Positions 16,812-30,569 of a stretch of 64,000 nucleotides of DNA are shown in pieces (position 1 is the first letter of the stretch; each line of letters opens with the position of its first letter). The notes under the pieces are model-generated. The model was not told where the DNA came from and did no database searches. It was given only the letters and a program-made list of their open reading frames with translations. A program made the position numbers and the translations under genes. The DNA comes from Gemmatimonadaceae bacterium (GTDB taxonomy: Bacteria > Gemmatimonadota > Gemmatimonadetes > Gemmatimonadales > Gemmatimonadaceae), in contig JADZAN010000024.1 of NCBI GenBank assembly GCA_020852815.1, forward strand, positions 248,001 through 312,000, read 5' to 3'.

Positions 16812-18337
16812 CGGATTCCAGTGGGGCGCTCGTCAGGTGCACGTATCGGCGGCACGTCGTGGGCGCCGTCCGTGGCGCCGTTCATTGCGCCGTTCTCGGC
16901 GCCCTCGCATTGGCTGTCATGGGGGCGTGCGAGGTGCGGGCGCAGGAGGGGTCGCGCACGCTGTCGCTGGCGCAGTCGATCGAGCTCGCGCAGCGCCAAT
17001 CGCTGCAGGCGAGGGCAGCGGAGAGTACGCGCGATGCCGCGCGGCGGCGAGACCGCGCCTTCACGGCGCGACGGCTGCCGCAGCTTTCGCTCACCGGCGA
17101 CATCCCCGCCTATAACCGGGCAATCATCCCCGTCCTGCAGCCCGACGGGTCGACGGAGTTCAAGTCGCAGCAGCAGACCGATGCGTCGCTCAACCTGCAG
17201 ATGACGCAGCGCCTTCCGTTCACCGGCGGGTCGTTCTTCGTGTCGTCGGCGCTGTCGCGGCTGGAGGTGAACGGAACGCGCGAGCTGCGCAACTGGTCGT
17301 CGACGCCGCTCTCGCTGGGGCTGCGGCAGGACATCCTGCGTCCCAACTCGTTCAAGTGGGATGGGCGCGAGCAGGACCTGCGCGGCGAGGCGGCTGAGCG
17401 CCAGTATCTCGAGGCGCGGGAAGACGTGGCGATTGGCGTGACGCAGGCGTTCTTCGATCTCTACACGGCGCGCCTGGACCTGGAGAACGCGACGCGGAAC
17501 GCGGCGGTGAACGACACGCTGTACACGCTCAACAAGGGGCGCTTCGAGGTCGGGAAGATTGGCGAGAACGACCTGCTCCAGAGCGAGCTGGCGCTGCTGC
17601 GCGCACGCAACTCGGTGGATGGTGCACGCCTCACGCACGACCGCGCGATGGCCGCCTTTCGCCTCGCGCTCAACCTTCCCCCCGACGCGCCGGTCAACAT
17701 CGCGGTGACCGACGTGGTACCCGACCTGGAGGCCGACACGCTGGTGGCGGTGCAGCAGGCGCTGCGCAACCGCGCCCTGACGATGGAGCTGGAGTTGCAG
17801 GATGTGCAGGCACGCCGGCGCATCAACGAGGCGCGGCTCAACAACGGGATCGGGGCGACGTTGCTGGCGTCGGTGGGGCTCAACCAGACGGCGAGCGACG
17901 TCAATGCCGCCTATCGCGACCTGCTCAACCAGCAGCGATTCTCGCTCGCGCTGCAGATGCCGATCGTGCAGTGGGGGGCGCGCAGCAACGACATCCAGGC
18001 GGCGCGCGCCGACCAGGACCGGGTGGCGGCCACGTCGCGCGTGGCGCGCGAACAGCTGGTGCAGGACGCGCACTTCGCCGCGTTGCAGCTGTCGCAGTCG
18101 CGGCGCCAGCTGGCCCTCTCGGCCAAGTCCGACACCGTGGCCGCCAAGCGCTTCGAGGTTGCGTACAACCGCTACGTGATCGGGCGCATCGACATGGACA
18201 ACCTGTACCTGGCCCAGAACGAGAAGAACCAGGCGCTGACGCAGTACCTGCAGTCGCTGCGCGGCTTCTGGCTCTCGTACTACCGGCTGCGGCGGGTGAC
18301 GCTGTACGACTTCACCACGGGAACGGTCATTCGTTAG
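16808..18337 (+). CDS. TolC-family outer-membrane efflux protein
   Basis: Outer-membrane channel of a tripartite exporter, 509 residues. After a signal region (~25-45) come two OEP repeats with long amphipathic helices (LSLAQSIELAQRQSLQARAAEST; later LNKGRFEVGKIGENDLLQSELALLRARNS and the paired YNRYVIGRIDMDNLYLAQNEKNQALTQ). ATG 16808 overlaps the permease stop codon, so translation is coupled. The gene ends with the octamer CGTTAGGC and overlaps the convergent gene by 11 bp. Confidence 0.88.
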   Translation: MTDSSGALVRCTYRRHVVGAVRGAVHCAVLGALALAVMGACEVRAQEGSRTLSLAQSIELAQRQSLQARAAESTRDAARRRDRAFTARRLPQLSLTGDIPAYNRAIIPVLQPDGSTEFKSQQQTDASLNLQMTQRLPFTGGSFFVSSALSRLEVNGTRELRNWSSTPLSLGLRQDILRPNSFKWDGREQDLRGEAAERQYLEAREDVAIGVTQAFFDLYTARLDLENATRNAAVNDTLYTLNKGRFEVGKIGENDLLQSELALLRARNSVDGARLTHDRAMAAFRLALNLPPDAPVNIAVTDVVPDLEADTLVAVQQALRNRALTMELELQDVQARRRINEARLNNGIGATLLASVGLNQTASDVNAAYRDLLNQQRFSLALQMPIVQWGARSNDIQAARADQDRVAATSRVAREQLVQDAHFAALQLSQSRRQLALSAKSDTVAAKRFEVAYNRYVIGRIDMDNLYLAQNEKNQALTQYLQSLRGFWLSYYRLRRVTLYDFTTGTVIR

Positions 18338-20066
18338 GCCGCGCCAGCCGCACCTCGAGCCGGCGCAGCTCGCGGCCGGCGATGGTGAGGTGCAGTGGGG
18401 CAACCGGCGCATGCGCCGGTGATGCGAGCTGGATGGTGATGGGGCGATCGGCCGGCAGCTCACAGAGGGTAAGCATGCCCCCCGCGTCGCTCCGCCGCTC
18501 GACAATAGCGGGGGTCGAGTCGCCCGCGGCGCGCGCGAGGGTGCTCATCCACCGGGCCGTGGCGGCCACGCCCGCCAGCGGCGCGCCGCTCGCCGAGTCG
18601 CGCACCGTCAGGTGCACCGTTCCGCGCCCAAAGGGCACCTCGCGTCCGCCGCACAACCGCGAGGCGATCCCGCGGGCGCTGGGGGCGGTGAAGGTGATTC
18701 GCCGCACCTCGCCCTCGCCGACGGCCACCGTTTGCTCGATCGCGGCGATGCCGAGCGCGTCGTAGCCCGGGGCGCGCACCGTGACGGTGAACTGCGACGG
18801 TGGGAGCGCGTCGAGGACGAACCGGCCGTCGGCATCGGGGGTCACCTCGCGCGCGGAGCCGGCCACGCGCACGATGGCTCCGGGGAGCGGGCGCTGGCCG
18901 CCGCTGTCGCGCACCGTGCCGGCCAGCGTCGCCAGCCGCAACGCGGGGCGCTGTTCGTCGGTTGTCACCACGCCCCCCTCCTCGCTCAGTGCCAGCGACG
19001 ACGGGCGCACCAGGACCCAGGGGGAACTCCCCTCGGTGGCAACCGCGTCCTGCGAGCGACCGTTCATCGGGACACGGATGAACCAGCGCCGCACGAGCCA
19101 GGCGCCGTTGGCAAGGCGGGCGAACTGCAGCTCGCCGCCGATGCGGGCGCTGTCCACCCCTGCGCGCACGCGGTCGTACGCAAACTCGACCGCGCGCAAC
19201 TCGAACGAGCGTGCATCGAGCCAGAGCGTTCCCACGACGTCGGGCACCGCGCTGCGCCTCGTTGGGGCAAAGGCGAGTCCCACCTGGTCGCGGCGGCCGT
19301 TGTGTCCGCGCACCTGGCGAAAGCAGTGCGTGTCGAGGAAGGCATCGCTGAGGAGGATGCGCGCGTCGGGACCGTAGTAGCGCGTGCGCGTGCTGTCCAC
19401 GTCGCGCCAGTAGCCGGTGACGGCGAGCGATTCCGCGGGGAGCGACGAGAAGGGGAGGGCGACGACGCCACGCACCTCGCTCCGTGTTTCGCGCAGCACC
19501 TTGAGCGTCCCCGGTTCCAGCTCGCGCACATAACGCGTGACCTGCGCGGTGAACAACCTGTCGCGTTGCGAGATCTCGGCGGCGTCGAGCGCGGTGCGCG
19601 CCTCGTCCCAGAGCGCGGCCACGCGATCGCGCTCCCCCGGATTCACCGAGCAGACCGAGTTCGCCGTGACCACCACCGTGGGAAGCCGGTACTCCAGCGG
19701 CTCCAGCGAGACGTCGAGCGTGCGCGTTTCGCCCGTGGCCAGCTCGAACGGAGGCGAGGCAAAGCGGTGGACGCCGATGCGCTTGGCGACCAGTTGGTAG
19801 CGCCCCGCGCCCGGCGCGCGCAACGCGTAGCTCCCGCTGGCATCGCTGAGGGCAGAGGCGACGCGCGTGACCGCCGTGTCGGCGCGAACGAGTTCAACCA
19901 GTGCGCCCACGACGGGGGCGCGCGAGGTGGACTGCGTCACGGTGCCACGCACCACCTGCGCCAAAAGCGGCGGCGCCCAGGGGACGGCGGGTGCGGCGAG
20001 TGCGGCGATGGCCGTCAGCCACAACGCGAATGGCAGGTGCCGCGCGCGCGGCGAGCGTGTCCTCAC
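18327..20066 (-). CDS. exported protein with carboxypeptidase regulatory-like domains (paralogue 2)
   Basis: Secreted 579-residue protein, function unknown. It has a signal peptide, then a CarboxypepD_reg (Ig-like) domain starting QVVRGTVTQ and typical of TonB-linked surface proteins. A central conserved region contains LWDEARTALDAAEISQRDRLF and IRVPMNGRSQ, and a second CarboxypepD_reg-like domain follows (LAGTVRDSGGQRPLPGAIVRV). GTG 20066 overlaps the stop of the upstream gene by 4 bp, giving a translationally coupled pair. The neighbour (20063-21796) is a clear paralogue with the same order of motifs, so this is a tandem duplication. Confidence 0.72.
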   Translation of the reverse strand: MRTRSPRARHLPFALWLTAIAALAAPAVPWAPPLLAQVVRGTVTQSTSRAPVVGALVELVRADTAVTRVASALSDASGSYALRAPGAGRYQLVAKRIGVHRFASPPFELATGETRTLDVSLEPLEYRLPTVVVTANSVCSVNPGERDRVAALWDEARTALDAAEISQRDRLFTAQVTRYVRELEPGTLKVLRETRSEVRGVVALPFSSLPAESLAVTGYWRDVDSTRTRYYGPDARILLSDAFLDTHCFRQVRGHNGRRDQVGLAFAPTRRSAVPDVVGTLWLDARSFELRAVEFAYDRVRAGVDSARIGGELQFARLANGAWLVRRWFIRVPMNGRSQDAVATEGSSPWVLVRPSSLALSEEGGVVTTDEQRPALRLATLAGTVRDSGGQRPLPGAIVRVAGSAREVTPDADGRFVLDALPPSQFTVTVRAPGYDALGIAAIEQTVAVGEGEVRRITFTAPSARGIASRLCGGREVPFGRGTVHLTVRDSASGAPLAGVAATARWMSTLARAAGDSTPAIVERRSDAGGMLTLCELPADRPITIQLASPAHAPVAPLHLTIAGRELRRLEVRLARPNE

Positions 20067-21796
20067 TCGCGCAACTCCACGACAGAGACCCCTCGCTCGG
20101 GGGTGCGAAGCTCCCACCGCCTGACGAGTGCGCCGTCGGGGGCGCGCTCCTCCACGACGACGCGCTCGAGCGCGGGGAGGCCACAGGCGTTCACCGCGCC
20201 CAACGCGTCGACCGGAAGCTCGACCGACTCCGTCTCGGTGCGAAAGGTGTTGCCGGCGATGAGGCGTCGCACCGGTCGCGTGACGCGCAGCACGCGCGGG
20301 TGCGCGCTGTCGACGGGGGCAGCAGGGGGAATCAGTCGCATGGAGATGTGCTGCTCATCGTCCTCGTCGTACCCGCACAGCTGGCGAAGGATCTGCGCCG
20401 TGCGCAGCGCCATGACAATGGTGCTCGAGTTCTTCCCCTCCTCGATGGTGAGCACCTGCTCTCCGGCCACGAGGCCGAGTCGTGCGTAGTCGGGGTGCTC
20501 GACGACCAGCGTGTAGTTCCCGGCCAGCACCTCCGCGAGGCGGAACGAACCGTCGGCCGCGACCATGACCGACTTGTCGAGCCCCGCCAACGAGACGCGC
20601 GCGCCAACCAGCGGTCGGCGCGCACTGTCGACCGCTTGCCCCGTGAGGATCGCCGTGCGAGCTCCGCCTCCCTCGTCGGCGGAGGTGAGCCCGCCATCCT
20701 CGATGAAGGCGACGATCCGGGCGCGGTCATCGGCGACGCGTCCGGCGCGCAACGTCGTCACGGAGCTGCGCGGGAGCTCGATGCGGGGGACGCGCATGAA
20801 CCAGCGCGAGACGTACCAGGCCCCGCGCGCCAGCCGCTCGAAGTGCACCTCGCCACCGACGCGCGCATCGGTAACTGGCAGCGGGAAGTTTGTGTAGCGG
20901 AAGGTCACGCGCCGCAGTTCATACGAGCGGGCATCGAGCCAGATCACCCCGGCGATGTCGGCTGTCTTGCGCGCCTTGGTGGGCGTGAAGGCGATCCCCA
21001 CCTCCCCGTCCTGCCTGGTGCGTTCGAGGGAGAAGCAGTGGTCACGCACGAAGCCGTCCGAGAGGAGGACGCGATCGTCGGGGGCGTAGAAGTCGAGGAC
21101 GCCGTCGGGGAGGAGCCGCGCGTAGCCGTTGGCGGCCAGCGATTCGGGGGCAATCGAGCTGAAGGCGCGCTCGGTGACGCCCTGCCGCACGCTGTTTGTC
21201 TCGTGGCGAATCCGGAGCGACCGGGGCTCGAGCGTGCGATGGTAGCGCGTGATGGTGGCGCGAAAGCGGCGCTCCCTCAGCGAGAGGTCGCTGGCGGTGA
21301 GGGCGGTGCGCGCCTCTTCCCAGAGCGCGGCAATGCGCGCGCGGTCGCCGGAGCGGACGTCGCACAGCGTCGCCCCCGTCACCGTCACCACGGGGAGGTC
21401 GAAGCGCACCGCCTCCAGCGCGATGTCGAGCTGGCGCGCCTCACCCGCGCGCAGGGTGAGCGCCTCCGACTGGAACTGCCGCACGCCGATGCGCTTGGCC
21501 GTGACGACGAAGGTGCCGGTGTCGCTGGCGGTGAGTGCGTAGGCGCCGCTGGCGTTGGTGAGCGTGGCGGCGACGCGCGAAACGTCGTTGGCCACCGCCC
21601 CGGCGCGGTGCAGGGTGACGACCACCCCCGCGATGGGTGCGCCGCTGGCGAGGTCGCGCACGGTGCCGCGCACCACCTGCGCCCGGAGCGGGGCGGGGAA
21701 CAGCGCGCACGCCACCGCGCCGGCGGCCGCAAGGCACACCGCCACCCCGCGCCACGCCGCCAGCCACAACGCCTCTCGCGCTAACCAACGCCTCAT
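20063..21796 (-). CDS. exported protein with carboxypeptidase regulatory-like domains (paralogue 1)
   Basis: Secreted 577-residue protein, first gene of the pair. ATG 21796 gives a signal peptide (basic start, hydrophobic LAAAGAVACALF, then AQVVRGTVRD at the mature end). The domain order matches the downstream paralogue: CarboxypepD_reg (~32-115), a conserved central region (LWEEARTALTASDLSLRERRF; KRIGVRQF; WLDARSYELRRV) and a second CarboxypepD_reg domain (LTGQAVDSARRPLVGARVSLAG). It is divergent from a tonB gene 125 bp away, and CarboxypepD_reg domains are common in TonB-dependent systems. A role at the outer membrane is plausible but unproven. Confidence 0.72.
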   Translation of the reverse strand: MRRWLAREALWLAAWRGVAVCLAAAGAVACALFPAPLRAQVVRGTVRDLASGAPIAGVVVTLHRAGAVANDVSRVAATLTNASGAYALTASDTGTFVVTAKRIGVRQFQSEALTLRAGEARQLDIALEAVRFDLPVVTVTGATLCDVRSGDRARIAALWEEARTALTASDLSLRERRFRATITRYHRTLEPRSLRIRHETNSVRQGVTERAFSSIAPESLAANGYARLLPDGVLDFYAPDDRVLLSDGFVRDHCFSLERTRQDGEVGIAFTPTKARKTADIAGVIWLDARSYELRRVTFRYTNFPLPVTDARVGGEVHFERLARGAWYVSRWFMRVPRIELPRSSVTTLRAGRVADDRARIVAFIEDGGLTSADEGGGARTAILTGQAVDSARRPLVGARVSLAGLDKSVMVAADGSFRLAEVLAGNYTLVVEHPDYARLGLVAGEQVLTIEEGKNSSTIVMALRTAQILRQLCGYDEDDEQHISMRLIPPAAPVDSAHPRVLRVTRPVRRLIAGNTFRTETESVELPVDALGAVNACGLPALERVVVEERAPDGALVRRWELRTPERGVSVVELRE

Positions 21797-21921
21797 CGGT
21801 CGTTCATCGAACCGTAATCCAGCGCTCACCGGGGGCTCATCCAGCACGCCGACGTTAGGGGTAGGACCTCGTGGGCCGCACCCTGAACACGACGCGGCCC
21901 CACTCACCAGGGGAGGACCCC

Positions 21922-22647
21922 ATGCGCATCACCCTACCCGAATCGTCACAGCGCCGCCAGCGTTCCGTCGGCGGCACCATTGCCAGTGCCATCATCCACG
22001 CCACCGTCATCGGCGGGACGCTGGTGGCGACGGGGATGTCGGCCGAGCGACCGCGGTATCCCAAGGTACAGCCGGAGCAACTCGTCTACGTGAGGCCGCA
22101 CGCGGTGGACCGTCCCCCCGCGCCGCGCCCAAGCGCTCGGCCGCCCGAACAGGTGGTCGTCCCTACACGAGAGCTCGTCGTGCCTCCCACGACCGTTTCC
22201 GTCATCGTCGATCCAACCATCGTCCCCACCGGGATTCCCCCGGTCGACGCGACGCTGGGCGTTCCCTTCGACTCCACGGCGCGCGCGAGTGAAGGCAGCG
22301 GGAGCGAGACTGCATCCTCGTCAGGCACAGGCGACAGCGGAACTCCCATGACCGCCTTCACCGTCGATCGCGAGGTTGTCCCGTTGCGTGGCGTCGCGCC
22401 GCGTTATCCGAGCATGCTCGCCAGCGCCAGCGTGGAGGGGACGGTCGTGATGCAGTTCGTCGTCGACACGCTGGGGCGCGTGGAGTCGGGGAGCCTCGAT
22501 GTTCTCCGCGCCGATCATCCGCTCTTCGAGCAGAGCGTGCGCGAGGCATTGGGACGGATGCGCTTCGTCCCCGCGGAGGCCGGCGGGCGGAAGGTGCGCC
22601 AGTTGGTGGAGCAGCCGTTCACCTTCGCGCTGGCTCGGCGCGACTGA
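21922..22647 (+). CDS. tonB: TonB family energy transducer
   Basis: TonB-like protein of 241 residues. ATG 21922 follows a good Shine-Dalgarno (AGGGGAGGA). One N-terminal transmembrane segment (~18-36) is followed by a Pro-rich periplasmic spacer and a C-terminal TonB domain (~155-241: VAPRYPSMLASASVEGTVVMQFVVDTLGRV). In the family this transfers proton-motive energy from ExbB/ExbD to outer-membrane receptors; neither partner is in the window. It is divergent from the CarboxypepD_reg gene pair. Confidence 0.85.
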   Translation: MRITLPESSQRRQRSVGGTIASAIIHATVIGGTLVATGMSAERPRYPKVQPEQLVYVRPHAVDRPPAPRPSARPPEQVVVPTRELVVPPTTVSVIVDPTIVPTGIPPVDATLGVPFDSTARASEGSGSETASSSGTGDSGTPMTAFTVDREVVPLRGVAPRYPSMLASASVEGTVVMQFVVDTLGRVESGSLDVLRADHPLFEQSVREALGRMRFVPAEAGGRKVRQLVEQPFTFALARRD

Positions 22648-23496: not shown

Positions 23497-23979
23497 CTAT
23501 GCTGCTCGCACCACGACCGTTCGCGCGATCTTGTCGTGCCACGCTTGCCCGTTTCGATCGATGATCGCCCAGAGGTATCCGAGGCCGAGGAACAGGCCGC
23601 TCACGAATCGCCCCACGAACTCGCGAACGAACATCGTCCCGAACCCCGGTATCTCCCCGCTGTCGGGTCGCACGACTCGCAGTCCCAGGATGCGCTTCCC
23701 GGGTGTGAGTCCCTCGCGCAGGAGCAGGAGGAACCAGATCAGATAGGCGAGCGGGAAGCCGAAGGCGACGATCGTGCCGAATGTCTCCGAGATCGCCAGC
23801 GCCCCGCCGCCGATCACTACATACAGAATGATCCCGATGAGTGGATCGATCATCAGCGCCATCCATCGGGCGAAGAGACCGGCCCGCGTTCCCCTCGATG
23901 GTGACGCCAGGAGGACGTTGCACCAGGAGCAGAAGAACGATTCCGGATTGACCGCACGCGCACAGTTGGGACATGTCAT
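23497..23979 (-). CDS. RDD family membrane protein with N-terminal zinc ribbon
   Basis: A 160-residue protein from ATG 23979. It begins with a CPNC ... CSWC zinc ribbon, then an RDD domain (LFARWMALMIDPLIGI, with the Arg and Asp typical of RDD) containing three hydrophobic helices. The C-terminal motif TPGKRILGLRVV ... VREFVGRF is also typical. RDD proteins sit in the inner membrane; some are sodium/proton antiporters but most are uncharacterised. It is divergent from the giant SARP regulator gene with 192 bp between them. Confidence 0.85.
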   Translation of the reverse strand: MTCPNCARAVNPESFFCSWCNVLLASPSRGTRAGLFARWMALMIDPLIGIILYVVIGGGALAISETFGTIVAFGFPLAYLIWFLLLLREGLTPGKRILGLRVVRPDSGEIPGFGTMFVREFVGRFVSGLFLGLGYLWAIIDRNGQAWHDKIARTVVVRAA

Positions 23980-24171
23980 GGTCGAACCCTCGCTTGAGCC
24001 GTCGAATGGTCGGCGACATCTTCGATGGACTGCGTCTCGTCCACGACTCCTGTCAGGCTCGCACGGTGGGTCGCGCTCGCGGTGACGAGCAGGAGACGCT
24101 GAGGAGACGTTCGCAGCAGACTTTCGCGAGATGTGGAGTCGGGCGGTGGGATACCGGATGCACGCGACCTT

Positions 24172-27100
24172 ATGACGGGCGCGAACGCCGACGGCGTTCG
24201 ACTGCGCCTCAGGGCCCTGGGTGAGTCGATCCTGGTGTCGGAGGGGGGCCGCGATAGCCCGCCTCGGGCGCTCGAGCTGTCGAAGGGACTGGCGTTGGTG
24301 ACGTACCTCGCCTCGCTCCCGGGGCGAAGCGCGTCGCGTGACCATCTGGTCGACATGTTCTGGTCGGACCTAGAGATCGAGGCCGGACGCCACGCGCTGC
24401 GTCAACACTTGTGGCAGCTGCGGCGTCGTTTCGACGACCGCCTACAGATCGAAGGGCGCGAGGTTCTGGCGCTAACCGCGCCGCTCGCCTTCGACCGTGA
24501 CGAACTGCTCGCAGCCGCAGAGGCCGGCGATCATCAGGGCGTGACGGAGCGATACACGGGCGACCTCCTGGCAGGCTTCGCCTCGCCGGGTGCCGTGGAG
24601 TTCGAGCGGTGGCTCGACCTCGAACGCGCCCGCCTTCGCTCGACGTTCGTCCGCTGCGGGCATGCGCGCGTCCACCAACTCATGGCGGAGGGCCGTTCGC
24701 GCGAGGCGAGCCAGCTCGCTCGGCGCGTGCGCGACGTCGCGCCCGAAAGCCAGCAGGCCTGGCGCGTGCTTCTCGACGTGCTCCTCTCCTCAGGCGATGC
24801 CCTCGGCGCGGCGATCGAGGCGGAGTCGCTCGAGCGCCGGCTGCGATCCGAGGATCTGGAGCCCGAACCGGCGACTAACTCCGTGCTGGCGCTGGTTCGC
24901 AAGGGCGCCCTCCCGGATTCGCGAGGTGCGGATGCGGCGCGCGGGCTCAGCGCGGCGCTGGTGGGTCGTGAACGAGAATTCGCGGGGCTTCTGGCCGCGT
25001 GGGGCGAGGCGATCTCGGGTCGCACCTCGTGCGCACACATCACCGCGCCCGCCGGCAACGGAAAGTCCCGGCTCCTGCACGACCTCGGCGTGCGACTCTC
25101 CGCGTCCCGCGCGCGCGTCGTGCGCGTACGCGCCAATGCGGGTGCCGCGCAGATTCCCGGCGCCCTGGCCAGCGACCTGGTTGCGGCGCTCGCGCACTTG
25201 CCGGGAGCGAGCGGCGTGAGCGTCGAGGTGGCGCGCACGCTCGTGAGGCTCAATCCCTCGCTCTCGAGCGTGTACCGCGCGGCGCCGGAGTCCAACGCGC
25301 CGGATGAGTTGCGCCAGCGCATGATTGCATTGCGCGACCTCGTTCAAGCGGTCGTCGAGGATCGACCGCTCGCGCTGCTCGTGGACGACATGCACTGGTG
25401 TGATGCGGACTCTCGCCACATGATCGCGGGCGCTATCGGCGGTTTGGACAAGGAACGCGTGCTGCTCGTGGTCGCCGAGCGTTCGTTGTCGTCGAGCGGC
25501 GTGTTCCTCCCGCACGCCCGGCACCTTGCGCTGGCGCGACTGCCACTGGCCGCCGTGGTCGAGCTCCTCGTGAGCATCGCGACGCTTCCCGCCGCGTCGT
25601 GGGCCGAGGCATTTCCGGCGCGCCTGCACCGCGCCACCGGTGGTTCGCCGCTCGCGGTACTGCAGACCTTGCAGCTGACGCGCGAAGGTGGCCTTCTCTC
25701 CATCGAGGAGGGTGGATGGGTCACGCGCCATCCCGACGCCTTGCTGACGACCATCGATGCCGGGACGCCGCTGCGGCAACGAGTGTCCGCACTCGGCGAT
25801 CCCGAGCGTCTGGTACTGGCCATGCTCGCGGTGGTCGGTGAGCCCGCGACCGTTGGCACGCTGGAGCGCGCGTTCGGCGTCCAGGGGAGCCAGTTGCACG
25901 CCTCGTTGCTGGCACTCGGCCAGGCGGGGATCGTCCAGCAGGACGACGATAGCTGGCGTCTCGCGCACGACACGTTCGCCGAGGAGGCGTTGACGCAGTC
26001 GCCGCCCGCCGAAGTACTGCGACTACACCATCTTCTCGGTCACGACCTGGCCGCCGGATCGACGGGCGGGCGGGCGCTGTTGAGCGCCGGCACGCATTTG
26101 CGCCTGGCGGGCGATACGGTCGGTGACCGGGCACTCTTTGTCCGGTACGTCCGGCAGCGCAAGTCCGGGCGCGATCGACGAAGCATCTCGACGATCGCCG
26201 CTGAATGGCTGAGCACCGTGCCCGACGACGCGCGGGTGTCGGAGCTGGCGTCATCGCTTCCTTTCGGAGTTCGTGTCGGGTTCTCGGCGCGCGCGCAGGC
26301 ATTCCTCACAGTGATCCTGTTGATCTCCGTGGCGGTTGCCGCCCTCACGATTCGGACGCAGGGCGACGAAGCGACGCGCGAGGAGATGCCGTACTTCGTC
26401 GTGGCCGCCTTCAACGAGCGGGGACTGCATCCCATGGCCAGGGTCTCGCTCGACACCGACTCGGGGAGCGGCGCCTCCTTCACGCTTCGTGCGGTCACGC
26501 TTCGCATGGCGGACTCCGCATTCAGGGAGGCACAGGAGATCCTCCCGCCTCCCGTAGACTCCCTCCCCTACATCGTGGTGCGCGCCGTGGGCGATAGTGG
26601 CGTCACCGACTTGTTCGCCGTGGATAAGGAAGGGCGTTCGCGCCGGCTCACTGCGGCGCGCGGCGATGATGTGCACCCCGACTGGTCGCCCGACGGACGG
26701 TCACTGGCATTCGTGACTTCGCGTTGGGATTCGCTCGAGCATCCCACGCTCGCGGTGCTCGAGCTTGCGACCGGCGTCGTGCGGCGACTGTCCACGAGCA
26801 CGGTGTCGGAGCTCTTGCCGCGTTGGAGTCCCGACGGCTCGCGCATCGCCTTTCTCGCGGACGACGTTGCCGGCACGTCGATGCGCGTCTGCACCGTGCG
26901 TGTCGACGGAAGCCATCGCAAGTGCTGGAACCTGTCGCCGCGCACCGACTGGCATCTGGAGGCATGGCAAGGCAACGACTCCCTCATCCTGAGACTGGCG
27001 GATGATTCGCTACCGCGGATGAAGGTGCTGGCACTCGACTCGGGAGCGATTCATGAGCGAACCCTTGCTTGTCGACCGCTCAACATCTCGCGAGATGCGT

Positions 27101-28200
27101 CGTTTCTCACGTGCGTCACACCGGGGACAGCGCTCGGGCCATTGGGCGGTGCGATCGCTTCCGTGCACGCGCATGCGGTTCCACAGCGCCTCCCCGCCTT
27201 CGGTAAGGAGACGTCGGACGAACGGCACGTGTTCTGGTCCGGCCGCCCCGGCCGCGGGAGACACATCGAGACTATCACGTTCGGGAACGAGGGCTCCATC
27301 GCCATCGTCGGCACTCCGTCGCGGCTCACGGTAGTCGCCCGGCGCGTGGACGGATCGACGATCGCTGCGCGCGAGCTGACGTTCACGTCATCCGATACGA
27401 CGATCGCCAGCATCGACACGAGCGGCGTGCTCCACGCGCGCCGGCCGGGCCGCGTGGACATCGTCGCGTCGGTTGGCGGATGGCGTTCGACGCGCCGCAC
27501 GTTCGAGGTTCGCCCAAACTCCGGGGTGACGATTCTGCGCGAGCGGTGGGAACGTGGATGGGATACCGGATGGCGAGTGTTCGGTATGCCGAAGTCGCGC
27601 GTGGTGACGAGTGGCGGGGTGAAGGCTCTCGCCATTGGCGGCGACGGGCGCTTCAGCTCCGGTGTCTATGCGCGTGTCCCGTTCGAGCGTGCGGAAGGAC
27701 TCGCCGTGCGGGTACGCCTCGCGACGAAGGTTCGACTGCAACAGTGGCAAGAGGTGGTGGTAGCGCTGCAAGATGGTGTGGACACAACGTCACTCGCCGC
27801 CTGGAACCACCAACGTGGTTTCGTCTGGGCCAGTGGTCGGATTGATGGCCGGGCGCCGCATTGCTGGGCGAGGTACCCGGGAGGGCGACGAGGTGCAACG
27901 TATGCCGACTCGTTGCTGCTTGACGTTGGGGGCGCCTCCGTGTTCGTCGCCGTCGACCGATCGCTTCGGACGGGTGAGTGGTACGATCTCGTGCTCCAGT
28001 GGCTCCCTGACGGACGATGCGCAGTGGCCGTCAACGGGCGACCGCTCGCGGTCGTGCCGCCCGTCGATCAGTACGCTGGCCCGACGCACCTCTTCGTCCA
28101 CGGCAACGCCTTCCGCACAGAGATGCTGGTCGGTGAGCTGCGCGTGATACGCGGCCTGGACCGTTCGGTGAACTGGGGCGATATGCTCGCGCGGCAGTGA
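24172..28200 (+). CDS. giant SARP-AAA regulator with transmembrane helix and exported propeller/Ig/lectin-like C terminus
   Basis: One 1342-residue chain. Residues ~8-95 are a SARP/OmpR-type winged helix (RLRALGESILV, then RHALRQHLWQLRRRF) and ~100-245 a bacterial transcriptional activation (BTAD) repeat domain. Next is a STAND/AAA ATPase with Walker A APAGNGKS (292-299) and Walker B LALLVDDMHW (~400-409). One transmembrane helix lies near 710-731. The rest should be periplasmic: a TolB/PD40 propeller (~800-1040, WSPDGRSLAFVTSR, RWSPDGSRIAFLAD), a Big2-like Ig domain (~1046-1115), and a concanavalin/LamG-like domain to the end. It looks like a membrane-anchored transcription factor that senses outside the membrane. 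GTG 24133 is an alternative start. ATG 24172 is preferred because the winged helix begins just after it. Confidence 0.8.
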   Translation: MTGANADGVRLRLRALGESILVSEGGRDSPPRALELSKGLALVTYLASLPGRSASRDHLVDMFWSDLEIEAGRHALRQHLWQLRRRFDDRLQIEGREVLALTAPLAFDRDELLAAAEAGDHQGVTERYTGDLLAGFASPGAVEFERWLDLERARLRSTFVRCGHARVHQLMAEGRSREASQLARRVRDVAPESQQAWRVLLDVLLSSGDALGAAIEAESLERRLRSEDLEPEPATNSVLALVRKGALPDSRGADAARGLSAALVGREREFAGLLAAWGEAISGRTSCAHITAPAGNGKSRLLHDLGVRLSASRARVVRVRANAGAAQIPGALASDLVAALAHLPGASGVSVEVARTLVRLNPSLSSVYRAAPESNAPDELRQRMIALRDLVQAVVEDRPLALLVDDMHWCDADSRHMIAGAIGGLDKERVLLVVAERSLSSSGVFLPHARHLALARLPLAAVVELLVSIATLPAASWAEAFPARLHRATGGSPLAVLQTLQLTREGGLLSIEEGGWVTRHPDALLTTIDAGTPLRQRVSALGDPERLVLAMLAVVGEPATVGTLERAFGVQGSQLHASLLALGQAGIVQQDDDSWRLAHDTFAEEALTQSPPAEVLRLHHLLGHDLAAGSTGGRALLSAGTHLRLAGDTVGDRALFVRYVRQRKSGRDRRSISTIAAEWLSTVPDDARVSELASSLPFGVRVGFSARAQAFLTVILLISVAVAALTIRTQGDEATREEMPYFVVAAFNERGLHPMARVSLDTDSGSGASFTLRAVTLRMADSAFREAQEILPPPVDSLPYIVVRAVGDSGVTDLFAVDKEGRSRRLTAARGDDVHPDWSPDGRSLAFVTSRWDSLEHPTLAVLELATGVVRRLSTSTVSELLPRWSPDGSRIAFLADDVAGTSMRVCTVRVDGSHRKCWNLSPRTDWHLEAWQGNDSLILRLADDSLPRMKVLALDSGAIHERTLACRPLNISRDASFLTCVTPGTALGPLGGAIASVHAHAVPQRLPAFGKETSDERHVFWSGRPGRGRHIETITFGNEGSIAIVGTPSRLTVVARRVDGSTIAARELTFTSSDTTIASIDTSGVLHARRPGRVDIVASVGGWRSTRRTFEVRPNSGVTILRERWERGWDTGWRVFGMPKSRVVTSGGVKALAIGGDGRFSSGVYARVPFERAEGLAVRVRLATKVRLQQWQEVVVALQDGVDTTSLAAWNHQRGFVWASGRIDGRAPHCWARYPGGRRGATYADSLLLDVGGASVFVAVDRSLRTGEWYDLVLQWLPDGRCAVAVNGRPLAVVPPVDQYAGPTHLFVHGNAFRTEMLVGELRVIRGLDRSVNWGDMLARQ

Positions 28201-28215: not shown

Positions 28216-29790
28216 CTAACGCCGGCGAGTAGTCCCGCGCGATGACTTGCTCCCGCCGAGCAACGCTCCCAGGACGCCGCGCACCAGCGTGCCGGTGACG
28301 GCGACGGCGGCGGTGCGGAGGACACTCTTTCCCACCGACGAGTTGAGCACCTGCCCCAGCACGCTGGTGTCGGCTGGCGCCTGCGACGCGGCGCGCCCGC
28401 GGCCGGCAGGCGCCGCAGGTGCGTCGGCTTCCGCTTGCGCCTCCGCCTGCTGCTGCGCCGCGTAGCGCGCCTGCAGGACCTCGCGCGCGCTCTCGCGATC
28501 GATGGCCGAGGCGTACTTCTTCACCTGCGGCGTTTGCAGCCGGCGGGCCATCTCGTCGTCGGTGAGCGGCCCCATGCGCGACGTGGGCGGGATCATGCGC
28601 GACACGAAGGGCGGCGTCGGCGTCCCCTTGGGAGAGAGCGTCACGACCATGGCCTCGCCGATCCCCATCGAGGTCAACGTCGCCTGCACGTCGTAGAACT
28701 CCGTCCGGGGAAAGGTGCGCGCGGCGGCGCGCAACGCCTTCTCGTCGTCCGGGGTGAAGGCGCGCAACGCGTGCTGCACGCGGTTGCCCAGCTGCGCGAG
28801 CACGGTGTCGGGAATGTCCTTCGGGCTCTGCGTGATGAAGTAGACGCCGACCCCCTTGGAGCGGATCAACCGCACCACTTGTTCGATCTGGTCCAACAAC
28901 GCCTTGCTGGCGCTGTCGAAGAGAAGGTGCGCCTCGTCGAAGAAGAAGGCGAGCTTGGGACGGTCGACGTCGCCGACCTCGGGGAGTTCGTTGTAGAGCG
29001 TTGCCAGCATCCACAGCATGAAGGTGGAGAAGAGCGCCGGCTTGTTCTGCACGTCGCTCAGCTCGAGGATGCTCACCAGCCCGCGCCCGTCGCGCTCCAC
29101 CTGCATCAGGTCGTCCAGGTCGAACATCGGTTCGCCGAAGAACTTGTCGGCCCCCTGCTGCTCCAGCTCGACCATCTCGCGCAGGAGGACGCCCACGGTC
29201 TGCTTCGACATCCCGCCGTACGCCTTGAGCTCGTCGGCCCCGTCGTCGGTGAGGTATTGCAGGACGCTGCGCAGGTCGGAGAGGTCGAGGAGGAGGAGTC
29301 CCTTGTCGTCGCAATACTTGAAGACGAGCGAGAGGACGCTGGTCTGCGTCTCGTTGAGGTCCAGCACCTTGGCCAGGAGCTGCGGCCCGAACGACGAGAC
29401 CGTTGCCCGCAGCTGCGCCCCTTTGGCGCCAGTGAGGCTCAGGAACTCCACCGGAAAGGAAGTGGGCGTCCACTTGCACCCGGTGTCGGCCGCACGCTGG
29501 TTGACCTTGTCGTTCGCCTCGCCCGCGGCTCCCACCCCCGACAAGTCCCCCTTGATGTCCGCCATGAAGACGGGGACCCCGGCATTCGACAGCTGCTCGG
29601 CGATCAGCTGCAGAGTTTTAGTCTTTCCCGTCCCCGTTGCACCGGCAATGAGGCCATGCCGGTTCATCATCGCCAACGGGATGCGAACGATGGGCTCGGG
29701 CTGGCACGTGCCCTCGTGCACCACGGCGCCGAGGGTGATGGCGTCGCCGGTGGCGGCGAAGACGAGTTTGGCGGAGTCGAATGCGGACAT
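28216..29790 (-). CDS. HerA-like helicase / DUF853 family ATPase
   Basis: Predicted HerA-FtsK-type ATPase of 524 residues (DUF853; the E. coli relative is YjgR). Walker A is GATGTGKTKT (50-59) and Walker B KLAFFFDEAHL (about residue 275). The sensor region reads YFITQSPKDIPDTVLAQLGNRVQHALRAF. A long Gln/Ala-rich linker (~440-480) precedes a short Gly-rich C terminus. ATG 29790 is preferred to an in-frame ATG 10 codons upstream, because the conserved sequence begins just after it. The cellular role is unknown; relatives are thought to act on DNA or as pumping ATPases. Confidence 0.85.
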   Translation of the reverse strand: MSAFDSAKLVFAATGDAITLGAVVHEGTCQPEPIVRIPLAMMNRHGLIAGATGTGKTKTLQLIAEQLSNAGVPVFMADIKGDLSGVGAAGEANDKVNQRAADTGCKWTPTSFPVEFLSLTGAKGAQLRATVSSFGPQLLAKVLDLNETQTSVLSLVFKYCDDKGLLLLDLSDLRSVLQYLTDDGADELKAYGGMSKQTVGVLLREMVELEQQGADKFFGEPMFDLDDLMQVERDGRGLVSILELSDVQNKPALFSTFMLWMLATLYNELPEVGDVDRPKLAFFFDEAHLLFDSASKALLDQIEQVVRLIRSKGVGVYFITQSPKDIPDTVLAQLGNRVQHALRAFTPDDEKALRAAARTFPRTEFYDVQATLTSMGIGEAMVVTLSPKGTPTPPFVSRMIPPTSRMGPLTDDEMARRLQTPQVKKYASAIDRESAREVLQARYAAQQQAEAQAEADAPAAPAGRGRAASQAPADTSVLGQVLNSSVGKSVLRTAAVAVTGTLVRGVLGALLGGSKSSRGTTRRR

Positions 29791-29821
29791 CACACTCTCT
29801 TGGGAGAAGACGAGAGGCATG

Positions 29822-30228: not shown

Positions 30229-30569
30229 GGGACGCTTTCCGGTGACGGGATCGATCGCGCAGTTGCCCGGGTGCAAACTGACGCCGGGAGAATGTGCCCC
30301 GCAGGGCGACCGCGCCAGCCTGTGGCGGTACGGATGCGGGAGATACGTGTCGTGGGAGAGGACGCGGCGAGGACGCGGCGAGGACGCGGCGAGGACGCGG
30401 CGAAGGAGCTGCAGCGCGCTGCGAAGACCGCGTAAGAACTTCGCGGGGACCGCGTAAGAACTTTACGGGGACCGCGTCGCTGGCGTGTCGCGGCGCTGGA
30501 CGACGTGTCGCGGCGCGCGGTACGTTCCGCCGAGCCGTTCACAAGCACGTCGCGATTCCTGGAGGTCCC
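30229..30569 (+). repeat. leader region with tandem repeats upstream of the LanC-like gene
   Basis: This 341-bp gap has no gene. It contains four perfect copies of the 11-mer GAGGACGCGGC (30358-30401). Two and a half copies of a ~23-bp unit GACCGCGTAAGAACTTnnCGGGG follow (about 30425-30478), then two copies of GTGTCGCGGCGC (near 30485 and 30505). The unit lengths are not multiples of three on the first array. A clear Shine-Dalgarno GGAGG at 30561-30565 closes the leader. The arrays may form a regulatory or unstable DNA tract. Confidence 0.7.

Follow-up and report, generated by a model that had tools for sequence, protein, structure and literature searches.

The gene at positions 24172–28200 (+) of a 64,000-nucleotide stretch of DNA from a Gemmatimonadaceae bacterium (GCA_020852815.1, contig JADZAN010000024.1, positions 248,001 to 312,000; here the window) encodes what is, on balance, probably a transmembrane, ATP-switched, self-regulating one-component regulator of the large-SARP type. 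The open reading frame runs from ATG24172, or from an alternative in-frame GTG at 24133 that would add 13 residues, to 28200. Its predicted parts are as follows (residues, aa, are counted from ATG24172).

24172..28200, + strand: membrane SARP-STAND-propeller-Big-CTD regulator, a single chain of 1,342 aa.
24193..24906, + strand: SARP domain, a winged helix (~aa 8–100) and BTAD (~aa 105–245); Pfam and profile match to AfsR (8hvr).
24934..26271, + strand: STAND/AAA_16 NTPase and the helical region after it (aa 255–700); Pfam and Walker motifs.
26296..26352, + strand: single transmembrane helix (aa 709–727); hydropathy 2.40, positive-inside flank.
26479..27309, + strand: TolB-like (PD40) propeller region (aa 770–1046); Pfam and TolB profile matches, invariant Cys907 and Cys918.
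27307..27510, + strand: Big2/Ig-like domain (aa 1046–1113); Big_2 in relatives, Ig-type PDB chains.
27517..28197, + strand: C-terminal all-beta domain (CTD, aa 1116–1342); invariant Cys1231 and Cys1283, possibly a ConA-like jelly roll.

In the window protein Pfam recognizes AAA_16 (E = 1.1e-16), PD40 (2e-11, two stretches) and BTAD (9.9e-5) above the cut-off, with Trans_reg_C (9e-4) and Big_2 (0.12) below it. The arrangement that defines a SARP, an N-terminal OmpR-type winged helix followed by BTAD, is present, the winged helix scoring under the Pfam cut-off in this protein. A STAND-type NTPase with Walker motifs follows the BTAD, as in large SARPs; Pfam assigns it to AAA_16, not to NB-ARC. 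The C-terminal TPR sensor of large SARPs is missing and propeller, Big and CTD stand there instead; the weak TPR matches in the window protein fall within the BTAD region. Having a DNA-binding domain and at least one transmembrane region in one chain, the protein also qualifies as a transmembrane transcription regulator. Alignment A1, which holds 20 of the 22 intact full-length chains (window included) and underlies all counts out of 20, gives AAA_16 in 20/20 rows, PD40 in 19/20, BTAD in 16/20, Trans_reg_C in 14/20 and Big_2 in 6/20 (best 2.5e-5). Walker A (GxGKS/T) and Walker B (DDxHWxD) are intact in all 20. The family profile matches TolB structures (1.5e-21) and chains of the Ig/Big type (best 1.6e-11), whereas the match to the AfsR SARP domain (8hvr) is weak (0.0026, or 8.9e-4 with the SARP-domain profile alone). 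Pfam, profile matches and hydropathy bear out the order proposed in the initial annotation: SARP and STAND parts, one transmembrane helix, then propeller and Ig-like domain.

All 99 genomes of the same family give some match, most of them to the SARP or STAND part only. Near-full-length matches number 23, in 19 of the 99 genomes (30–37% identity, the window itself excepted), and a second copy of the regulator lies on contig C43 of the same genome (G000). Twenty-two of the 23 places, spread over 18 genomes, have no internal stop. That two genes have been joined by an assembly or frame error, a possibility raised at the outset, is therefore practically out of the question. One relative (G008) does carry an in-frame TAG, but nothing of the kind is seen at the window, and the recurrence of uninterrupted single frames refutes the idea. 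The cytoplasmic and exported halves have diverged together (Mantel r 0.79, p 0.0002). A profile of the CTD matches in 71 of 395 genomes of the phylum, the strong matches mostly within frames of 1,200–1,540 aa. A further sample of 20 loci, many distant and some from other families of the class, yielded 21 frames with a CTD; the SARP domain was found in all 21, STAND in 20, Big in 19, a recognizable propeller in 15 and a hydrophobic peak in the linker in 18. From sequence comparison, the regulator family appears to have been kept as one chain across the bacterial class. L107 is the lone member of this sample without a STAND domain; the idea that the STAND part is optional has this one member behind it and was dropped. 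Twelve plasmid records match, each over no more than 80% of the query; those listed, ten in number, cover the SARP and/or STAND part only. A scan of genome contigs gave one Thermoleophilaceae STAND match. L035 is a Thermoleophilaceae genome, and searching 296 genomes of its phylum with the CTD profile gave no match, an empty answer that, with no known positive, shows little. PADLOC has no model for the regulator, and an anti-phage role was rejected.

The predicted transmembrane helix, QAFLTVILLISVAVAALTI (aa 709–727), has a Kyte-Doolittle hydropathy of 2.40. In the linker between STAND and propeller the top 19-residue hydropathy is at least 1.6 in 16/20 rows and 1.21–1.48 in the other four. 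The residues preceding the helix (up to 15) include 2–6 K/R versus 0–1 D/E in every row. Only four cysteines (907, 918, 1231 and 1283) are invariant in 20/20 rows, and all lie C-terminal to the helix. Four cytosolic large SARPs of the same family lack such a helix at this place (best hydropathy 0.58–1.29, 4/4). Besides these propeller-Big-CTD proteins, termed type I, there is a type II group with the same SARP-STAND-helix part (best hydropathy 1.64–2.53 in 10/10 tree rows) and, in place of these domains, ∼ 300 aa of a different conserved exported region, without the CTD. Because of the hydropathy peak, the charge bias, the position of the invariant cysteines and the lack of such a stretch in cytosolic SARPs, a cytoplasmic N-terminal half and an exported C-terminal half (N-in/C-out) are well supported but not proven. 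The helix sits after the STAND region and before the propeller, its flank is positive-inside in all 20 rows, and it is not buried within the propeller, the outcome that the initial annotation had named as fatal to its proposal. We consider it very improbable that the stretch is a buried helix of an entirely cytoplasmic chain: the modest hydropathy of four rows and the presence, in single rows, of other hydrophobic stretches in the STAND part would fit such a chain, but the charge bias, the cysteine distribution, the TolB- and Big-type domains downstream and the cytosolic relatives argue against it.

A putative operator precedes the gene.

24083..24109, + strand: putative SARP-type operator TGACG-AGACG-AGACG; three GACG copies with an exact 11-bp period, 63–89 bp before ATG24172.

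The copies start at 24084, 24095 and 24106, within a 192-bp region shared with a divergent RDD gene. Large SARPs bind direct repeats of 11- or 22-bp spacing beside the -35 element. AfsR repeats are likewise 11 bp apart (PMC10936776). When the 250 bp before each of the 22 main regulators were searched for 7-mers repeated with at most one mismatch, direct repeats at 11-bp spacing were found upstream of 17/22, compared with 2–10/22 at each other spacing from 7 to 35; upstream of other genes in the same loci, 94/295 had 11-bp repeats. The core of the repeats is TGACG: TGACG-N6-TGACG (at most one mismatch) occurs upstream of 15/22 regulators and 10/293 control genes. Held-out relatives, which were not used for finding the core, have the pair in 15/38 cases against a mean of 3.0/38 at 23 other spacings (binomial p 8e-8 if the cases are independent); the hits comprise 7/21 distant type I members, 4/10 of type II, 4/4 of type IV and 0/3 of type III. 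In the genome of the window 20 of the 26 TGACG-N6-TGACG sites are intergenic, versus 8/22 at 10 bp and 8/30 placed at 12 bp. The triple GACG pattern of the window was equalled in 8/5,000 shuffles of the 192-bp region, although the window is among the 22 discovery regulators and this figure is hence not independent. AGACG copies occur in the window and in a relative of the same genus (L038), and GGACG in L056, so that the spacing is constant while the letters drift. This pattern fits autoregulation, but also regulation by other BTAD proteins. A literal LRQ in the recognition helix is associated with the presence of TGACG (23/37 versus 7/23, Fisher p 0.033), a comparison chosen after the data had been seen and only a hint. 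Elsewhere in the genome, a TGACG pair lies 39 bp before another AAA_16 gene on contig C46, whose product looks SARP-like at its N-terminus by eye. At L036:12848-13746 (G000), the C43 copy is divergent to a gene whose product has five fn3 stretches, and the intergenic region between the two holds one TGACG-N6-TGACG pair in front of either gene. Within the window, a tandem 11-bp repeat, GACGCGGCGAG, is present in more than three copies at 30361–30403, upstream of the ATG (at ∼ 30570) of a LanC-like gene, again with GACG at 11-bp spacing; this may be either another operator-like array or just a simple repeat.

Several observations weigh against a membrane-bound, self-regulating protein. The topology was read from hydropathy, charge and cysteines only. 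The upstream regions of 5/22 regulators (L044, L046, L048, L049 and L054) yielded no 11-bp 7-mer repeats, nor did those of 12/21 distant type I members; L044 has a one-mismatch TGACG pair. Genome-wide, 11-bp spacing brings no excess of TGACG pairs (26, versus 22 at 10 and 66 at 12). All four type IV proteins, which are cytosolic SARPs, carry the same repeats, and other BTAD proteins could bind them. At the window operator, nothing resembling a sigma-70 promoter was found. An AGACG-type regulon was rejected: 12 such sites occur in this genome and 11 in G026, the adjoining genes look unrelated by eye from their N-termini (several are housekeeping-like), and the regulator's own promoter is the sole target common to both genomes. 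Nor do the relatives' loci share a conserved neighbour that would name the signal or the regulon.

The sequence itself shows the domain layout and its conservation in a single chain, the helix with its orientation signals, the intact Walker motifs and the upstream repeats at SARP spacing; from these we infer export, ATP switching, ligand sensing, DNA binding and autoregulation. The mechanism proposed here is drawn from the domain anatomy and the precedent of AfsR, whose SARP domain is restrained by NOD and TPR until ATP releases and activates it (PMC10936776). The SARP domain and STAND ATPase would be cytoplasmic, one helix would cross the inner membrane, and the propeller, Ig-like domain and CTD would be exported, the exported module taking the place of AfsR's cytoplasmic TPR sensor. 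In its apo state this module would keep STAND closed in the ADP form. An outside ligand or envelope state would alter the pairing of chains in the membrane, upon which STAND would swap ADP for ATP and oligomerize. Paired SARP domains would then bind 11-bp-spaced direct repeats beside the -35 element and recruit RNA polymerase from the membrane, the first target being the promoter of the regulator gene itself. With a predicted operator and a likely autoregulated promoter named, the regulator is directly testable.

The signal could differ from a free ligand. The exported half may instead report the envelope state, with the propeller and Ig/CTD bound to a periplasmic partner (a Pal-like lipoprotein or a cell-wall polymer) and loss of contact as the signal; we regard this as possible but rather unlikely, and as a variant of the signal side of the proposed mechanism, not of its switch. 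TolB proteins are the best solved relatives of the propeller (1.5e-21), and the four invariant cysteines suit an oxidizing compartment. However, PD40 propellers bind many things, just two repeats are recognized by Pfam in the window protein, and no Pal or Tol gene is found among the recurring annotated neighbours.

The initial annotation had also called the end of the chain LamG- or lectin-like. Sequence gives this label no support: the window protein has no LamG-type Pfam match at E ≤ 1, and no significant relative of the CTD with a solved structure was found (best PDB profile match 0.061, partial). A single-sequence model of the CTD is all-beta but of low confidence (predicted local distance difference test, pLDDT, 43). 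Foldseek with this model gave best E-values of ∼ 1.5e-3 to 1e-2 and a query TM-score of at most 0.36 among the rows shown, mostly to receptor-binding domains of clostridial neurotoxins, but also to a sialidase, galectins and a yeast carbohydrate-binding domain. These we take to share the ConA-like jelly roll, which is a hint of the fold of the CTD and not of kinship; as it stands, 'LamG-like' is a guess drawn solely from a low-confidence model. A model of the whole exported half (pLDDT 37) was useless. The Ig assignment leans on the six relatives with Big_2 and on the Ig-type PDB chains, the E-value in the window protein itself being only 0.12.

On a tree built from 59 rows of the cytoplasmic part, 7 changes are needed to account for the exported types, where the minimum would be 3 and shuffling gives 17.9 on average; for type I, the starred branches demand three changes or more. 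The tree has long branches and comes from a quick search. Sensor exchange or repeated loss among the exported types is likely, not proven. The type II rows of alignment A5 are L027–L034, L061 and L067; their exported domain has a conserved motif, S.T[NS]W...W..G[ND][DE], and the three tails scanned gave no Pfam match over the cut-off. Tentatively, and at rather less than even confidence, these proteins could be class-wide transmembrane STAND receptors that are transcription factors themselves: one SARP-STAND-helix chassis with interchangeable exported sensors (types I and II), ATP-driven oligomerization in the membrane on engagement from outside, and an own 11-bp operator that drifts with lineage. 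The differing exported domains would then amount to a stock of outside sensors already available for a single chassis.

Regulated proteolysis would use the same chain differently, an outside event causing the linker or helix to be cut, after which the released SARP-STAND half would act as an ordinary cytoplasmic large SARP. The full SARP-STAND set is contained in the cytoplasmic half, related chains without an exported part exist (L129 and L130), and a 717-aa SARP-STAND chain (L131:704-2854) ends just past a helix of very high hydropathy (2.98), with a membrane anchor but no exported domain. We nevertheless hold cleavage to be improbable: no protease gene recurs among the annotated neighbours, many lineages have retained the helix despite their divergence, and acting from the membrane is common for regulators of one chain (PMC10269533).

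The genes on either side are those given in the initial annotation, RDD and HerA-like, as Pfam confirms.

23497..23979, - strand: RDD membrane protein with a cysteine-rich N-terminus (start re-read at 23979); PF06271, 1.7e-20; divergent, sharing the 192-bp promoter region.
28216..29820, - strand: HerA_C (DUF853-type) ATPase gene; PF05872, 7.8e-198; convergent.

The RDD gene is a possible second target, judged from the shared promoter region; no link between the HerA_C gene and the regulator was found. Pfam, run on some of the window's 51 called genes, placed a LanC-like gene (4.5e-35) 2.4 kb downstream of the regulator. A family-wide operon partner was sought and none found, group-specific neighbours being housekeeping genes (ParA, acyl-CoA ligase, folE, PTPS, SMC-type). 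A pair of DUF1800 and DUF1501 genes lies near the regulator in 5/22 loci (L043, L045, L046, L055 and L036) and was not built on; in L036 (C43) both follow the regulator on the same strand. Around one housekeeping cluster (ParA, acyl-CoA ligase, SDR, folE, PTPS, GNAT, SMC-type) the regulator occupies two different positions, one in L041, L042 and L047 and the other in L048, L049, L052 and L054, as if it had been gained or moved twice. Elsewhere in the window, two adjoining proteins with CarboxypepD_reg domains (18327–21769) are followed by a TonB_C protein (21871–22647).

STAND switches are usually drawn with the sensor in the same compartment. If the proposed mechanism is right, a STAND transcription factor would have its sensor across the membrane, and NTPase-driven assembly would be set off from outside the cell within one polypeptide. 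With its probable sensor outside and its DNA-binding switch inside, such a protein would link an external signal to gene expression by a simple route that can be tested.

Large SARPs are well known (PMC10972967). AfsR and its like (SARP + NB-ARC/NOD + TPR) resemble the window family in having a SARP DNA-binding domain and BTAD followed by a STAND NTPase, and 11-bp-period direct repeats before their targets, the spacing also seen upstream of the window family (PMC10936776, PMC10972967). They differ in that the window family has a predicted transmembrane helix and an exported propeller-Big-CTD instead of the TPR sensor; the match to AfsR is weak (8.9e-4), and the window regulator is not beside an antibiotic cluster recognized by Pfam in the part of the 51 genes scanned. 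The combination falls outside the small, medium and large SARP classes of one review (PMC10972967), in line with the earlier claim that classical SARPs lack it. CadC, ToxR and TcpP also have a DNA-binding domain inside, one transmembrane helix and an exported C-terminal part in one chain, but in the window family a STAND ATPase lies between the DNA-binding domain and the membrane. Single-chain transmembrane regulators are common (50,302 in 9,673 genomes; PMC10269533), and the words BTAD, SARP, WD40 and Gemmatimonad are absent from that survey's main text. A literature search by titles and abstract openings, with preprints and most subscription papers outside its reach, turned up no paper on a SARP that is anchored in the membrane and has a propeller. 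MalT and other STAND regulators share the NTPase switch between effector and sensor (PMC10936776); their sensors are cytoplasmic, whereas that of the window protein would sit across the membrane from the switch, and its DNA-binding domain is SARP-type and N-terminal. What sets the window family apart is the union of these features, in which a STAND switch is predicted to separate the SARP domain from the membrane and the sensor to lie outside.

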